The notes beneath the pieces are model-generated. The model saw only the letters and a program-made list of their open reading frames with translations. It was not told the DNA's origin and did not search any database. DNA of 64,000 nt from Pseudomonadota bacterium (lineage in GTDB: Bacteria > Pseudomonadota > Gammaproteobacteria > Burkholderiales > Burkholderiaceae_C). The stretch covers positions 1 to 64,000 of the forward strand of contig JAKBBP010000008.1 of assembly GCA_021808445.1 (NCBI GenBank). Reading direction: 5' to 3'. Shown piece by piece: positions 1-6,725 of this stretch; positions within the stretch are counted from its first letter, which is position 1, and every line of letters starts with the position of its first letter. A program made the translations under genes and the position numbers.

Positions 1-1408
1 GCTGGTCGTATCCGGCGGCCGCCGCGCAGCCCGTGCAGCTGCCGTCGTTGCCGGCGATGATGTCGTGGAAGGCCAGCGCGTATTGCGTGGGATGGGACAG
101 CAGCGGATACAGCCAGGGCGGCACGCTGCCCAAGGGACTCTCGCCGTTGAAGGCGCGCAGCGCATCGGCCACCGCGATCACGCCCGCCCATTCCGCGGAG
201 CCGACCACGGTCCCGCCGGCCACGTAGCCCGTCACGGTGCTCGGCGTCGAGGGGGAGATGGCATCGTAGATCTGCCCGGTGTTGCCGTCGGCGTCCATCG
301 CCACGTCGGCCACCGAGCGATAGGCCCCGAGACCGGAGACCACGCTCTGGTAGGAGGGCAGCGTGGTGTACAGGCTGGTGCCGGCACCGGTGGAGGTCCA
401 GGCGACTTCGTCGCGCGGCGCCGATGCATAGGAGATCAGGGAGGTGCCGCCGACCGCCAGAACCTGCGGGGCTACCGCCGGCCACTGCACCTGGCCTGCG
501 CCGCCGGCTCCGGTTCCGGAGACATAGCTCATGTCCGCGGTCGTGAACATGCTGTCGGACTGGCCCGCCGCTTCCGTCCAGCCCCAGGCCATGGAAACGA
601 TCCCCGCGCCCATGGTGTCGACCAGGCTGACGGCGGGCGCGAGCGTGGTCGCAGCGCCGGGCGTCTCCACGACGATCAGGCGCGCCAGCGGAGCGATGGC
701 GTGCGCCCATTCGGCCTGGATCGCGGTTTGCCCCGCCCAGTAGGAGTCATAGCTTGGAACGTTCGGGCTCATCGCGCCTGCGGCTGTCGTGTACACCATG
801 GACAGCGTGCAGCCCGCGCTCGCCGAGGCGGCCGCCAGTGGCAGGGAGGCGCTGCTGGAAATCGACATCGCGGCACAGGCGGGAAGTGCGTACTCGCTGC
901 TGAACGCCGCCAGCTCGGCGCTGAGTTCGGAGTCGTCGTAGGGGTCGACGATGTACAGGGTCTGCCCGGCCCCCAGCTGCGCCCGCTGCGCCGCGCTCAG
1001 ACCGGTCCAGGTGGCGGGCAGCGGGATCAGTCCGTAGGCGTCGCGAATCTGCGCGGGGGTGTAGTTCGCCACCGTGCTGGTGGGACTGGAGCTGCTCGCG
1101 GGCAGGGAGACCGAGGCGAAGGCACGCGCCAGGCTGAAGTCGGTCGGCGCGGCGGCTGCACGCTGCATGCGCAGCACGCTGGCGGAGGCCAGGGGCATGG
1201 TCAGGCCGATCACCGCGCCGCTGCTGCTGCCGGTCTGGCACTGGGTGGTCGAGGTCGAGCTCAACGCGATGGTCGGGGTGCTGGCGCCGCCGCCGCAGGA
1301 GGCCAGCGCCGCGATGGCCGTGGACGCCGCGAGCCACGTCGACGCGCGCCACGCGGGAGGCCTTGGGCGCGCGCCATGGGCACCGAGGGCTGCGAGGATT
1401 GGCTGCAT
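1..1408 (-). CDS. S53 (sedolisin-fold) lipoprotein, catalytically dead paralogue, C-terminus beyond window edge
   Basis: Third gene of a tandem trio, read leftward from ATG at 1408 behind a GGGAG ribosome binding site and still open at base 1 (about 469 codons visible). The N-terminus is a long basic leader ending in a lipobox (LASC) near residue 38. The fold follows its two neighbours: a YTP..R.AYG block at the start of the domain, an EWAHA block, WPAV.PQ.LAVGGT, and a C-terminal calcium-loop block (HDIIAGNDGSCTGC...GYD) at the window edge. The catalytic positions are all changed. The Glu and Asp of the ExxxD helix are both Gln (codons 728-730 and 716-718), the Asp of the SG.GD.G loop is lost (about 505-512), and the Ser of GTS is Val (206-208). 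It is therefore predicted to be a non-proteolytic homologue with a preserved fold. There is no propeptide domain. It is 35 bp behind the second paralogue, probably in the same operon. Confidence 0.85.
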   Translation of the reverse strand, partial: MQPILAALGAHGARPRPPAWRASTWLAASTAIAALASCGGGASTPTIALSSTSTTQCQTGSSSGAVIGLTMPLASASVLRMQRAAAAPTDFSLARAFASVSLPASSSSPTSTVANYTPAQIRDAYGLIPLPATWTGLSAAQRAQLGAGQTLYIVDPYDDSELSAELAAFSSEYALPACAAMSISSSASLPLAAASASAGCTLSMVYTTAAGAMSPNVPSYDSYWAGQTAIQAEWAHAIAPLARLIVVETPGAATTLAPAVSLVDTMGAGIVSMAWGWTEAAGQSDSMFTTADMSYVSGTGAGGAGQVQWPAVAPQVLAVGGTSLISYASAPRDEVAWTSTGAGTSLYTTLPSYQSVVSGLGAYRSVADVAMDADGNTGQIYDAISPSTPSTVTGYVAGGTVVGSAEWAGVIAVADALRAFNGESPLGSVPPWLYPLLSHPTQYALAFHDIIAGNDGSCTGCAAAAGYDQ

Positions 1409-1443
1409 GATGGACACTCCCGGCTTGTGCCGTTCAGGGGGGC

Positions 1444-3072
1444 TCAGCCCGCGGAGCGGCCGCGCGCCGAGGCAAGCGTGAGCGCGTGGGCGCTGGAAAT
1501 GCGCAGCCGCAGTCGCGCGCTGCCGCTCAGCCCGGTGCGGGGGTCGGTGGCGGTGGCCGTGACGACGTAGCGCCCGCAGGGCGGGCGGGGCCAGCTGATC
1601 ACGCCGGTCGATGGGCCGATGCGCATGCCTGCCGGTGCGTGCGCCAGGCTCCAGCGCACCGGCGCCACCGCGCTCAGGGGCATGTTGAAGTCCAGGGCCT
1701 GGAAGGGCGCCCCATGCAGCGTCAGCGGCAGCACGATGGGCGCGACCCGCTGCGGGCTGCCACGCAGATAACGCAGCAGCGCTTCGACGTTGGGCGTGCC
1801 CAGGCCGCCATGGTCGATGGGCTTGAACACCCGTGCGTACAGCGCGGGCCGGCGCAGCAGCGCGTAGAGCAGCGGCTGCACCTCGCCCAGCACGCCGCGT
1901 GCGCGCAGCGAGCGCTCGGCATCGGCCACGGCGAGGATTCCGGCCCACTCGGGAGCGGCCAGGCTGGTGCCGATGATCGCGCTCCACACCGGCGGACACA
2001 GCCCGGCAGGCGCCGAGGCCGCCGCGGGCGGCGCGGGGATCGCCGAGCGCGGCGTCGGGGGGCAGACCCGGCGGCCCGACGGCGTCCGGGTCGCCGGGGG
2101 AATCTGCACCAGCACCTGGCCGACGCCCGCGTTCATGGCCACGTCGGGCAATGTGCGCATGCTGCGGCCCAGAGGGGCCTGGTAGGCGGGAGCCGCGATG
2201 GTGCGGCTGGTGCCGCCTCCCGATCCTGGCCAGGCGGCTTCGTCGCGCGACGTGGCGGTGTAGGCGCGCAGCACGGTGCCTCCGACCGCCAGCACCTGGG
2301 GCAGCACGGCCGGCCAGTTCACCTGGGCGCCGGCGTCTCCGGTGCCGGCCAGGTAGGTCATGGCGGCGTCGTCGAACAGATCGGCGCGTGCCCCGGCGAG
2401 GCTTCCCGCGCCTTCCGCGATGACCATGCTCATCGACACCACTCCCGGACCCAGGCGATTGATCAAGGCGAGCGCGCCGGGCCAGTCCGTGGGCGCGCTG
2501 TCGACCTCGATCAGGCGCGCCAGTGGAGCGCTTGCATGCGCCCATTCCAGGTCGGCTGCGGCTTCGGCTTCCCACTGCGCGTTGTAGGGGGGTGGCGTGG
2601 AGCGCATGCTGCCCGAGGCCGTCGCATGGACCCGCGAAAGGGTGCATCCCGCGGCGGGCGAGGCGGCGGCCAGCGGCAGCACGGCATCGACGGGAATGGG
2701 CGTGGCCGAGCATCGCGGCAGACCGAAGCTGCGGCTGAACTCGTCGAGTTCCTGGGCCAGATGGGGATCGTCGTACAGGTCGAGGATGTACAGCGTCTGG
2801 CCGGCCCCGAGGGCGGCGGCCCGCGCCGCTTCCAGGCTGCTCCAGTGCGCGGGCAGGGGGGGCTCCTGGTAGGCACGCCGCAGTTGCAGCGGCGTGTAGG
2901 CGCCGCCCAGCGCGGGGCCGGTGCCTGCGCAGGCCCGGTCGCTGTCGCAGGCCGCGATGGCGGCCGTGGCGACCAGTCCCGCCGCCACGCCGCGCGCGAT
3001 GGCCCCCGCGCGCGGGCATCGGGCCAGGGCGACGAGGGATCGGGCGACGAGGGATCGGGCGGGTCGCGGCAT
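1444..3072 (-). CDS. S53 (sedolisin) family serine-carboxyl peptidase-like lipoprotein with one Ig-like domain
   Basis: 542 residues. A basic leader ends in a lipobox (IAAC, Cys42), so the product should be an exported lipoprotein; Asp follows the Cys. The sedolisin domain runs from about residue 58 (YTPLQLRRAYQ) to 435. The catalytic set is present: Glu170 and Asp174 (ExxxD), Asp246 (GTGDAG) and Ser370 (IGTSLAAPEWAG). The C-terminal calcium-binding loop of the family is missing: between the last helix and GLGTPN there is only a short PIDHG segment, where the two paralogues carry a Cys-containing loop. A single He_PIG-like Ig domain follows (about 450-530, ending in a YVVTATATD strand). Sedolisins are acid-active peptidases; without the calcium site and with no propeptide, activity here is uncertain. 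It lies 40 bp after the first paralogue. Confidence 0.85.
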   Translation of the reverse strand: MPRPARSLVARSLVALARCPRAGAIARGVAAGLVATAAIAACDSDRACAGTGPALGGAYTPLQLRRAYQEPPLPAHWSSLEAARAAALGAGQTLYILDLYDDPHLAQELDEFSRSFGLPRCSATPIPVDAVLPLAAASPAAGCTLSRVHATASGSMRSTPPPYNAQWEAEAAADLEWAHASAPLARLIEVDSAPTDWPGALALINRLGPGVVSMSMVIAEGAGSLAGARADLFDDAAMTYLAGTGDAGAQVNWPAVLPQVLAVGGTVLRAYTATSRDEAAWPGSGGGTSRTIAAPAYQAPLGRSMRTLPDVAMNAGVGQVLVQIPPATRTPSGRRVCPPTPRSAIPAPPAAASAPAGLCPPVWSAIIGTSLAAPEWAGILAVADAERSLRARGVLGEVQPLLYALLRRPALYARVFKPIDHGGLGTPNVEALLRYLRGSPQRVAPIVLPLTLHGAPFQALDFNMPLSAVAPVRWSLAHAPAGMRIGPSTGVISWPRPPCGRYVVTATATDPRTGLSGSARLRLRISSAHALTLASARGRSAG

Positions 3073-3112
3073 GGCGGGCAGGCCTGTGGGAGGGTGCCGT
3101 TGCGTGGGGTGC

Positions 3113-5407
3113 TCAGGCGGCCACGCTGACGACGACGCGGGTCTGCGAGCTCAGCCCGGAGGAGTCGGTGGCGGTGAGGGTCAGCACATAGCTGCCGCAC
3201 TGCGGGCTGGGCCAGCTCATCAGCACGCTCTGGCCGCTGACGCGAAAGCTCATTCCGGTGACCGCGCCGGTGATGGCGATCTGCGCGGACGTGGCGCTGC
3301 CGTCGCTCAGCGTGGCCAGCAAGGCCGACAGCGGGGTGCCGGCGGTACCGGCCGGCGCGTTGCCGGTGAACAGCGGCCCGGTGGTGGTGGAGGCGAAGCG
3401 CAATTGCAGGGTGGCGCTGGAGGTCTGGCCGGTGGTGGTGTCGGTGACGGTGACGGTGGGCGAGTAGCTTCCGGCCACCGGCGAGGCCCAGGACAGCACG
3501 CCTGCGGAGTCGACGCTCATGCCCGCGGGGGCCTGGGCAAGGGACAGGCTCAGCGGGTCGAGCTGGGGGTTGCTGAGTTGCAGCGCGTAGGAAAACGGCA
3601 GTCCGGGAGTTCCGCTGAGGCTGGCGGACGAGACCGTGGGCGCGCCGGAGCCCAGGATGCGCACACTCAGCGTGGCGCTGCCGCTGAGCAGGGTCAGGGG
3701 GTCGGTGGCGGTGACGGTGACGGAGTAGTTGCCGGGCGTGGGCTGGGGCCAGCTGACCGTGCCGGTGGAGGTGTCGATGCTCATGCCCGACGGCGCGTTG
3801 CCAAGGCTCCAGCTCACCGGCTCCACGGAGGTGAAGGGCATGCCGACGCGCAGGGCCTGGGTGGACGAGCCGCTGACGGACAGCGGGCTGACGAGGGGCG
3901 CCACCTGCGCGGGGCTGGTGCTCAGGTAGCCCAGCAGGGGGGTGACGTTGGGGGTTCCCAGGCCGGTCAGGGCGTCGTAGCCGACGGTCGCGCTGCAGCT
4001 CGAGCAGCTGCCGTCGCTGCCGGTGGTGATGTCCTGCAGCAGCTGCGCGTACGTCGTGGGTCGGTCCAGCAGGGAGTACAGGTAGGGCTGGACCTCGCCG
4101 AGCACGCCCAGTCCGAGCAGCGCGCGCTCGGCGTCGGCCTGCGCCAGGATCCCGGCCCATTCCGGGGTGGCGATGCTCGTTCCGTCGGCGGCCTCCCACA
4201 CGGGCGTGCACAATCCGGCGGGGGCCGAAGGCGCCGTCGCGGGCACGGACATCGCGTTGCCGGGGGCGGCCGGGCAGGTGCCGAGGCCCACGGAGGCGGA
4301 TGCTGCCGGGGCAATCGTCACGACATACTGGCCCGTGCCTCCCATCATCGACACGTCGGGCACCGTGCGCATGGCCAGCCCAAGGCCCAGCTGGTACATG
4401 GGTGCCGTCACGTACGAGCTGGTGCCTCCTCCCGTGTTCGACCAGGCGGATTCGTTGCGCGAGGTCGCGGTGTAGGAGGACATGACCGTGCCTCCGACCG
4501 AGAGAATCTGGGGCATCACGGCAGGCCACATCACCTCGGTGCCCCAGTCCCCCGAGCCGGAGACGTAGGACATCTGGGCGTCGTCGAACATGCTGTCGGG
4601 CATGGACGAGTATTCCTTCATGGCCCAGCTCATGGACACGATGCCCGGACCCATCGTGTCGACCAGGCTCAATGTCGCGTTGGAGCCGTTTCCCGGCATC
4701 TCGACCAGGATGATTCGCGCAAGGGGGGCGATGACATGGGACCACTCGATGTCGATCGCCGTCTCCAGCGACCACGAGGAGTTGTAGCTTGGCGCGGTCG
4801 ACGTGAGACTGCCGCTGCTGCTCGAATAGACCTGCGTGAACGTGCATCCGGCGCTCGCGGAGGCCGCCGCGAGCGGAAAGCTTGCGGTCACGGGGATCGA
4901 TGCCGCGGTACAGGTGGGCAGGCCGAAGGTCTGGCTGAAGTAGTTGAGTTCCTCGAAGGCGGCGGGGACGTGGTACTGGATCAGGATGTAGATGGTCTGT
5001 CCGGCGCCGAAGCCCGCGGCCTGGGCCGCGCTGAGCCCGCTCCAGGAGCTGGCCAGGGGCAGCTCCTGGTAGGCCTGGCGGACTTCCAGGGGGGTGTAGA
5101 CACCGTTCGGCGGCGCGGATGCGGCGGTGGCCGCCGGCACGATGGACGACAGGCTGCTCGAGCCCAGGGGCATGCTGAGCTCGATCGTGGAGCCGGTGAG
5201 CGCGGCGCCGGACTGACATGTCGTTCCGGTCGAGCTGCCGGAGGAGCCGCCGCCGCAGGACGCCAGCAGGACCAGGCCGCACAGCGCGCCGATCATGCGC
5301 GCCGCGTGCGCGGGCGCCCTGGGGCCACACAGTTCCGATCGCCTGGCACCCTCGATGGCGCAGCTGCTCGGGTCGGGCGAAGCGGGTACCCGCCTTTGGG
5401 ATCGCAC
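3113..5407 (-). CDS. S53 (sedolisin) family peptidase-like lipoprotein with three Ig-like domains
   Basis: First gene of the trio. GTG at 5407 is chosen because an AAGGGGGG ribosome binding site lies about 8 bases upstream and because it gives the long basic leader seen in the paralogues; ATG at 5296 and TTG at 5524 are alternatives. Numbered from 5407, the lipobox is LASC with Cys51. The sedolisin domain starts near residue 103 (YTPLEVRQAYQ). Catalytic residues are intact: Glu215/Asp219 (LETAID), Asp287 (SGSGDWG) and Ser411 (DGTSIATPEWAG). The calcium loop is present around Asp459 (QDITTGSDGSC..C...GYD). Three He_PIG-like Ig repeats follow, each with a (Y)S/TVTVTATD-type strand. The usual large N-terminal activation propeptide is absent: only about 50 residues separate the lipid anchor from the peptidase domain. 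It is probably a cell-surface or periplasmic acid peptidase. Confidence 0.85.
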   Translation of the reverse strand: MRSQRRVPASPDPSSCAIEGARRSELCGPRAPAHAARMIGALCGLVLLASCGGGSSGSSTGTTCQSGAALTGSTIELSMPLGSSSLSSIVPAATAASAPPNGVYTPLEVRQAYQELPLASSWSGLSAAQAAGFGAGQTIYILIQYHVPAAFEELNYFSQTFGLPTCTAASIPVTASFPLAAASASAGCTFTQVYSSSSGSLTSTAPSYNSSWSLETAIDIEWSHVIAPLARIILVEMPGNGSNATLSLVDTMGPGIVSMSWAMKEYSSMPDSMFDDAQMSYVSGSGDWGTEVMWPAVMPQILSVGGTVMSSYTATSRNESAWSNTGGGTSSYVTAPMYQLGLGLAMRTVPDVSMMGGTGQYVVTIAPAASASVGLGTCPAAPGNAMSVPATAPSAPAGLCTPVWEAADGTSIATPEWAGILAQADAERALLGLGVLGEVQPYLYSLLDRPTTYAQLLQDITTGSDGSCSSCSATVGYDALTGLGTPNVTPLLGYLSTSPAQVAPLVSPLSVSGSSTQALRVGMPFTSVEPVSWSLGNAPSGMSIDTSTGTVSWPQPTPGNYSVTVTATDPLTLLSGSATLSVRILGSGAPTVSSASLSGTPGLPFSYALQLSNPQLDPLSLSLAQAPAGMSVDSAGVLSWASPVAGSYSPTVTVTDTTTGQTSSATLQLRFASTTTGPLFTGNAPAGTAGTPLSALLATLSDGSATSAQIAITGAVTGMSFRVSGQSVLMSWPSPQCGSYVLTLTATDSSGLSSQTRVVVSVAA

Positions 5408-5819
5408 GGTCAGGTTCCCCCCTTGGCCGTTGGGAAGGCCCTGGCGCCGGCTCGGGGGATCCCCGTTCCGGGTCGGGCTTGGATGGCTGGATGGTAGGTT
5501 GGGAAATCCTGGGTTTTCGCGCAAAATTTGCCGAATAACGCGATGATCAGCGTTAATTTCCTGAAAAAATCAGGGAATATTGGAATATTTCATTTCTGCG
5601 TCCAGCCGTGCGGCCGGCGCTCGCGCTGCCGGATGCTCGGCGCGTCGCCGCATGCGCACCGTGCTTGCGTCCCGGCTGGGATCTCCTCTTGCAGGCAAGG
5701 CGCCGGGCCTGTGTCGCGCCGCCAGACTGCGCCGTGTCGCCGGTTGTCCCTAGAATTTGCATTGCGCAGGGGCGCCGGCTCGCAGCCTGCCCCCGTTCCC
5801 CTCTCCCGTGCCTTTCGCC
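5408..5819. other. Intergenic region between the S53 operon and argB
   Basis: No gene recognised. The stretch around 5515-5605 is clearly AT-rich against its surroundings and holds an imperfect inverted repeat (CCTGA-A5-TCAGG, about 5560-5574). It is the likely site of divergent promoters for the S53 trio and for argB, but I cannot assign exact -35/-10 boxes. The remainder up to the argB start is GC-rich and featureless. Confidence 0.4.
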
Positions 5820-6725
5820 ATGACCGAATCCGCCGTACCCGACCTGGCCCACATTTCCCCGCGCGACAAGGCCGAGATCCTCGCCCAGGCGCTGCCCTAC
5901 ATCCGCAAGTTCCACGGCAAGACCCTGGTCATCAAGTACGGCGGAAACGCCATGACCGATCCGGCGCTGCAGCAGGACTTCGCCGAGGATGTGGTGCTGC
6001 TCAAGCTGGTGGGCATGAACCCGGTGGTGGTGCACGGCGGCGGCCCGCAGATCGACGAGGCCTTGGCCAAGATCGGCAAGAAGGGCACCTTCATCCAGGG
6101 CATGCGCGTGACCGATGCCGAGACCATGGAGGTGGTGGAGTGGGTGCTGGCGGGTCAGGTGCAGCAGGACATCGTGGGCCTGATCAATTTCGCCGGCGGC
6201 AAGGCGGTGGGGCTGACCGGGCGCGATGGCGGCATGATCCGCGCGCGCAAGCTGCGCATGCGCGACCGCGCCAATCCCGAGGTGGAGCACGACGTGGGCC
6301 AGGTGGGCGAGATCGAGTCCATCGATCCAGCGGTGGTCAAGGCGCTGCAGGATGACCAGTTCATTCCGGTGATCTCGCCGCTGGGCTTCGGGGAGGACAA
6401 CGAGAACTTCAACATCAATGCCGACGTCGTGGCGGGCAAGCTGGCCGAAGTGCTCAAGGCCGAGAAGCTGGTGCTGCTGACCAACACTCCCGGGGTGCTC
6501 AACAAGGCGGGCGAGCTGCTCACCGACCTGTCGGCGCGCGAGATCGACGAGATGTTCGCCGACGGCAGCATCTCCGGCGGCATGCTGCCCAAGATCTCCT
6601 CGGCGCTGGATGCGGCCCGCTCGGGCGTGAACTCCGTGCACATCATCGACGGGCGCATCCCCCATGCCATGCTGCTGGAGATCCTGACCGAGCAGGCCTT
6701 CGGCACGATGATCCGTTCGCATTGA
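5820..6725 (+). CDS. argB: Acetylglutamate kinase
   Basis: 301 residues, full length for the family. It phosphorylates N-acetyl-L-glutamate with ATP, the second step of arginine biosynthesis, in the cytoplasm. The amino-acid kinase fold is shown by the N-terminal KYGGNAM phosphate loop (about residues 41-47), the GGGPQI substrate loop (about 76-81), and the [26 protein letters not shown] nucleotide region followed by [11 protein letters not shown] at 5820 is preferred over an upstream in-frame ATG at 5757 because homologues begin near this point. It overlaps the next gene by four bases, so the two are probably cotranscribed, as is usual in Burkholderiales. Confidence 0.95.

Follow-up and report, generated by a model that had tools for sequence, protein, structure and literature searches.

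Organization of the locus

The window, by which we mean the whole 64,000-nucleotide stretch of DNA analyzed, begins with the first base of contig C33 and opens with three tandem genes, termed A, B and C, that belong to the sedolisin/kumamolisin type (MEROPS family S53). The neighboring amino acid kinase gene is presumably argB. The features are as follows:

2..1408, minus strand: gene C, lipoprotein of S53 fold that has no catalytic residues, 469 aa up to the contig end, which truncates the C-terminus
1444..3072, minus strand: gene B, S53 protein with a Glu/Asp/Asp/Ser (E/D/D/S) tetrad and a lipobox assigned by eye, calcium loop deleted, one Ig-like match below cut-off
3113..~5407, minus strand: gene A, S53 lipoprotein (lipobox assigned by eye) with E/D/D/S tetrad, calcium loop and, behind them, Ig-like He_PIG/PKD modules
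5820..6725, plus strand: argB-type gene (amino acid kinase family), the neighbor that marks the site

Because the window begins at the first base of its contig, gene C is truncated at its C-terminus. The orthologue in the same-genus genome G013 is complete and encodes 753 residues including an Ig-like region, and that of G025 is complete except for its last residues, the contig likewise stopping inside the gene. We preferred the GTG at 5407 as the start of gene A because G013 and G025 have an upstream GTG as well; the ATG at 5296 is possible. Genes A and C share 48% identity across 383 residues. The gaps separating A from B and B from C measure 40 and 35 bp in the window, 31 and 35 bp in G025, and 34 and 35 bp in G013. 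A search of the window genome (G000) with gene A returned nothing beyond the three genes, and no promoter or terminator patterns were found in positions 1-6000.

Loss of the catalytic tetrad in gene C

The triad of kumamolisin consists of E78, D82 and S278, and D164 is its oxyanion Asp, as given in excerpts of PMC5935664. HMMER aligned gene C with kumamolisin (1gt9; E=6.8e-6) and placed the following four codons on these positions:

728..730, minus strand: Q227, aligned with kumamolisin E78
716..718, minus strand: Q231, aligned with kumamolisin D82
506..508, minus strand: A301, aligned with kumamolisin D164 (oxyanion Asp)
206..208, minus strand: V401, aligned with kumamolisin S278 (nucleophile)

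MAFFT alignments with other S53 proteins put the four residues in identical columns. Since the kumamolisin alignment matches Q/Q/A/V directly to E/D/D/S, the catalytic residues of gene C have not merely moved to shifted positions, and the protein lacks both the Glu/Asp/Ser triad and the oxyanion Asp of an S53 peptidase. The C copies are all dead in this sense, with QQAV in the window and QQTG and QQAA in the orthologues.

The reading frame of gene C is open and carries a lipobox recognized by eye (LASC followed by GGG), as it does in 3/3 species. Its motifs comprise the opening YTPAQIRDAYG, the helix AGQTAIQAEWAHAIAPLAR, the loop GTGAGGAGQ and GGTVVGSAEWAG, and it keeps a calcium-type loop (HDIIAGNDGSC...GYDQ). 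All three species have such a loop sequence in A and C, and two have it in B, in each case toward the C-terminal end of the catalytic domain; its calcium binding and ligand positions are putative. In the window copy of gene B, the loop is gone through an in-frame deletion at ~1800-1835 (KPIDHGGLGTPN). The B orthologues of G013 and G025 retain it, so that the deletion is confined to the window species.

The triad and the oxyanion Asp are present in 6/6 copies of A and B. The match of gene A to the PDB is weak, being limited to TPP1 (E 7e-4) near the Ser loop; its Glu and Asp were assigned by aligning it with C and further S53 proteins. A first-pass annotation of this DNA had reported the loss of all four catalytic positions in gene C, with coordinates that proved exact against DNA and translation, and the retention of its lipobox and calcium-type loop, which we also find. 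It had further described C as lying next to two intact paralogues, in a trio that is active, degenerate and dead. This holds for the tetrads of A and B but not for the calcium loop of the window's B, and the threefold description applies to the window species but not to G013 or G025, where B keeps that loop.

Invariant positions across the S53 family

The E/D/D/S tetrad is intact in all six A and B copies, in the single copy of genome G006 and in 29/29 aligned homologues from the taxonomic family; the latter are the loci returned (L032-L060) from a search with matches in 43/399 family genomes, G000 included. A-type relatives occur without C in dozens of genomes. Across 36 non-C proteins, allowing up to three gaps per column, we defined 60 invariant columns. 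Seven of them are altered in all three C copies, including the four catalytic ones (hypergeometric P = 7e-5 for 4/4 among seven losses, the columns not being fully independent). The other three fall in the SxSW strand (its second Ser), the GGG loop (its middle Gly) and the GTSxxxP loop (its Pro); going by sedolisin structures, these three presumably line the active site. Gene C retains 50/60 columns, and 3 more lie past the cut end of the window copy. A and B show one change each, a gap at a Pro column. Judged from these alignments, the losses in gene C are selective for the active site. The median identity of the catalytic domain to the 29 active family members is 49% for the window's C, 45% for A and 44% for B, and outside the active site the ancestral scaffold is kept by C at least as well as by the tetrad-bearing copies.

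A wider hunt for dead copies, covering the rest of the family, the order, class and phylum, Dyella and Acidobacteria, gave 36 ORF hits from 38 loci (L028 and L030 yielded no ORF hit), and none of the 36 had lost the whole tetrad. Thirty carry E/D/D/S, L119 is a fragment, and in L026, L027, L029 and L078 the first pair is misaligned, yet E-x-x-x-D is present in the sequence. The distant S53 homologue L124 (G419:C297, ~1160-2000) has E/Q/D/S and GTSVSTAFF; replacement of its D82 by Gln is possibly an independent, partial loss. Pattern searches of the ten weakest family matches detected the oxyanion Asp and the Ser motif in 10/10 and E-x-x-x-D in 7/10, the pattern not being found in L134, L135 and L140. 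At E 1e-15, matches were obtained in 2/369 class genomes and 3/398 phylum genomes, G000 included in both. Plasmids gave weak matches alone (25 records, all <60% identity). Eight IMG/VR contigs (L126-L133) encode S53 relatives at 36-40% identity, and the seven that were translated (all but L130) carry E/D/D/S motifs. PF00082 was dropped as a search profile, as it gave no match in the window genome yet matched 7/14 control genomes.

Predicted fold of gene C

We modeled the catalytic domain of the G013 orthologue of C from 14 sequences. The best of five models reached a pLDDT of 86 and a pTM of 0.90, with pLDDT values of 62-80 for the others. Its 17 best PDB matches are all S53 structures, among them kumamolisin-As, kumamolisin, Pseudomonas sedolisin and TPP1, and they rank ahead of subtilisins (best E 7.6e-19). 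With TM-scores to the query of 0.64-0.71 and r.m.s.d. values of 5.3-7.3 Å, the match holds at the level of the fold, and this model predicts a sedolisin fold for gene C. A full-length prediction from 8 rows was poor (pLDDT 51) and was discarded.

Selection on gene C

The C frames are open and free of stops in three species at 70-81% identity, two of the copies ending at contig ends. In the catalytic domain, Nei-Gojobori dN/dS for the three species pairs is 0.31, 0.32 and 0.40, with bootstrap 95% limits from 0.21 to 0.54, all below 0.55 and below 1. The active paralogues give 0.33-0.47 (A) and 0.35-0.40 (B) over the same domain, and whole-gene values are 0.39-0.47 for C, 0.45-0.55 for A and 0.42-0.43 for B. 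Amino-acid identity in the catalytic domain is highest for C (74-89%, as compared with 67-72% for A and 68-70% for B). For the G000-G013 pair, three neighboring genes show far lower dN/dS (argB ~0.01, HAD ~0.05, TetR ~0.10), which indicates that the constraint on the trio is moderate.

Fixed loss of the tetrad is thus accompanied by purifying selection in 3/3 orthologues, and we find neither a disrupted frame nor neutral evolution. Gene C very probably lacks catalytic activity and is under selection; on the strength of its sequence, it is a conserved pseudoprotease and no pseudogene, in line with the earlier view that it is not decaying.

The constraint is unevenly distributed over the former active site. 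In 15-column windows, identity among the C copies is high at the Gln pair (92nd percentile), lower at the oxyanion loop (26th) and low at the former Ser (9th). Across the copies, the Gln pair alone is constant; the Ser position is occupied by V, G or A and the oxyanion position by A, T or A. From these three sequences we infer that the acid/base helix, now QxxxQ, is constrained and that the nucleophile side drifts. The high variability of the former-Ser stretch makes a preserved pocket at the old nucleophile unlikely. The role of C may instead be carried by its scaffold, with Gln in the place of the carboxylates, as the same three copies suggest. The annotation had taken amide and aliphatic replacements at every catalytic site as a sign of selection for binding, and had asked whether a Gln/Gln/Val pattern is conserved. 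Conservation extends to the Gln pair (3/3) but not to Val or to the oxyanion replacement, and only the Gln helix looks selected, which argues against a selected pocket throughout.

Phylogeny, distribution and genomic site

In our tree, the rest of the family falls outside a single clade (100/100) made up of A, B, C and the G006 copy. Within it, each of the three genes forms a fully supported monophyletic group, with those of A and B as sister groups (100/99); the first branch within the clade, C versus the G006 copy, has support of 86/28. The tree omits L066 and L067, in which no start motif was found, and includes B rows of unusual composition. Gene C appears to have shed all its catalytic groups before the three species split.

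The trio occurs in conserved order in 3/28 same-genus genomes (G000, G013 and G025), and thus recurs as a gene set that pairs tetrad-bearing and dead copies, in line with the annotation's view of the trio as a possible system. Any S53 match was found in 4/28 genomes and none in the remaining 24/28. The fourth, G006, has a single tetrad-intact copy, and argB was not detected there. Gene C was found solely together with A and B (3/3 in the genomes examined). All three trio genomes are fragmented (115, 140 and 600 contigs; G013 is a MAG), so that the co-occurrence of C with A and B carries little weight. In G013, the trio spans two overlapping contigs, C124 with argB, A and the start of B, and C61 with the remainder of B, the whole of C and a DUF1345 gene. 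In G025, a single contig carries a partial argB together with A, B and the greater part of C.

In 13/26 argB loci, none from a trio genome, argB adjoins a DUF1345 gene at ~120-265 bp; the remaining 13/26, the three trio genomes among them, have no DUF1345 match in their short flank. The trio of G013 sits between the two genes. The argB-DUF1345 site is empty in 13 relatives (L083, L084, L086 and ten more) and filled in G013 (L021 3670-4335). The trio at this site would represent either an insertion or a set of genes that was repeatedly lost, and we found no convincing flanking repeats. Between G013 and G025, dS is 0.085 for argB (189 codons of one gene) as against ~0.43 for A and C (L022/L023), a hint at an exchange of divergent trio alleles. 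For the G000-G013 pair, dS is 0.24-0.42 for neighboring genes and 0.39 (A), 0.58 (B) and 0.26 (C) for the whole trio genes, values with which horizontal exchange is no more than a possibility.

Pro-domain and Ig-like modules

The Pro-kumamolisin domain (PF09286) was not detected at E 0.1 in any of the window's three proteins, nor at E 0.01 in A and C of G013, A and B of G025 and the G006 copy. A Dyella S53 protein served as positive control and scored 93 bits. Four single-copy relatives from the order (L061, L063, L064 and L065) also lack a match, and Ig-like domains exceed the cut-off in 2/4 of the scanned relatives at this level. Gene A has He_PIG and PKD matches above the Pfam cut-offs, and gene B one Ig-like match below. 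In the complete C of G013, a single He_PIG domain passes the cut-off and weaker Ig/PKD matches stay below it, and the G006 copy carries Ig-like modules of the kinds found in A. By pattern, a lipobox-like motif lies upstream in 26/29 of the family homologues L032-L060. The branch comprising these loci together with L061 and L063-L065 has an N-terminal extension in which a TFHxAPV-like motif is often present.

Proposed role of gene C

A binding, inhibitor, chaperone or receptor role for C, as first suggested, is plausible. As we read it, C is a member of a small clade of pro-domain-less S53 lipoproteins and was retained after the loss of its tetrad. A, B and C would be co-produced and lipid-anchored on the cell envelope, and their Ig-like modules might provide spacing or adhesion. 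C would rely on the sedolisin scaffold that it retains to serve as a non-catalytic partner of A (and B), possibly in a heteromer in which it stabilizes or restrains the active protease or delivers substrate to it. The Gln pair in place of Glu and Asp would keep the former acid/base helix packed without charges, and the former Ser and oxyanion loops would be free to drift. We favor a partner because of the compact gene order and because C occurs only with A and B (3/3). Against this stand the small number of trio genomes, the moderate constraint on the three genes, the dozens of genomes in which A-type relatives do without C, and the lack of promoter or terminator patterns at 1-6000. Taken as a whole, a conserved pseudoprotease that most likely acts as a non-catalytic partner of A/B is the best explanation, and we regard it as close to an even call. 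That C would act on A/B, rather than alone, is quite possible, if short of even. The more specific proposal of a surface-anchored heteromeric acid protease, in which C is an obligate non-catalytic subunit that replaces the missing pro-domain or presents substrates to A and B, is in our view unlikely; if true, an S53 pseudoprotease and its protease partner would be encoded together in an operon, and the Gln-x-x-x-Gln helix would be the signature of the pair.

C could instead be an independent surface binding protein, such as an adhesin or a receptor for peptides or glycans, and have no more than its operon in common with A and B; its Ig-like region and retained scaffold, and not A or B, would then matter. 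The He_PIG and weaker Ig/PKD matches of G013 C, the lipobox seen by eye in every C copy and a scaffold kept while the Ser loop drifts are all compatible with such a protein. C was however observed in the trio only, and the similar Ig-like modules of A and of the G006 copy mark no separate role for it, and we consider independence somewhat unlikely.

An inhibitory or protective function, in which C would behave like an immunity protein or a pro-domain and occupy or shield the A/B active site, would suit the absence of a canonical PF09286 domain from A and B and the placement of C on the strand of B, 35 bp downstream of it. The four order-level relatives also do without PF09286 and have no C seen beside them, so that a missing pro-domain does not imply a need for C, and we judge the function improbable.

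Finally, a recently dead duplicate in slow decay toward loss, to which the elevated dN/dS relative to three neighboring genes, the variable Ser and oxyanion loops and the 24/28 genus genomes without any match could point, is very unlikely given open frames at 70-81% identity in three species, dN/dS significantly below 1 and like that of the paralogues, 50/60 invariant columns kept (3 missing merely through the cut of the window copy) and losses directed at the active site.

The trio offers a compact natural system for testing how live proteases may be controlled by a dead one, and also for asking how pro-domain-less sedolisins are held in check on the cell surface.

Comparison with known systems

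MEROPS lists non-peptidase homologues in many families. Among the S53, sedolisin and kumamolisin literature searched, titles and the beginnings of abstracts mention neither an inactive S53 partner nor an operon of dead and active S53 genes, and excerpts of PMC5567314, PMC6278154, PMC5935664 and PMC11593635 do not describe an inactive S53 partner. In its excerpts, PMC5567314 dismisses 'likely inactive homologs' of fungal serine proteases from its set, so that dead homologues as such are already known.

The trio shares with the MEROPS S53 family the fold, the position of the ExxxD helix, the GGT and GTx loops and the calcium-type loop. A and B also share the E/D/D/S tetrad, of which C has 0/4, and the trio proteins that we scanned differ from the family in lacking PF09286 and in carrying a lipobox and C-terminal Ig-like regions. 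Prosegment-less S53 proteins are already known, as some fungal sedolisins consist of the core alone according to excerpts of PMC6278154. The pro-domain-less S53 proteins of the bacterial family (L032-L060) have a catalytic domain with 44-49% median identity to A, B and C. Unlike the trio, they usually come as a lone strong match in a genome (G248, G317 and G376 have two), and no dead partner was seen.

Models for the proposed function are provided by the prozyme of trypanosome AdoMetDC, a dead homologue that regulates the live enzyme (PMC5201418, in excerpt), and by the iRhom pseudoproteases, which act with ADAM17 (PMC11248996). With C they have in common a dead protein retained beside an active enzyme. 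They differ in being non-S53 proteins whose interaction is proven, whereas the partnership in the trio is predicted from sequence, and the iRhoms are rhomboid-like and not paralogues of ADAM17.

Known pseudoproteases include the eukaryotic iRhoms and scabies mite proteases and the bacterial pseudo-orthocaspases. The latter are protease homologues with replaced catalytic residues in several lineages (PMC6426788, in excerpt) and differ from C in belonging to a caspase-like family in which a His/Cys dyad has become Tyr/Ser. Gene C represents a bacterial S53 case, in which the catalytic set has been removed completely and selectively. Several species share this fixed loss, each with two neighboring copies whose tetrad is intact.
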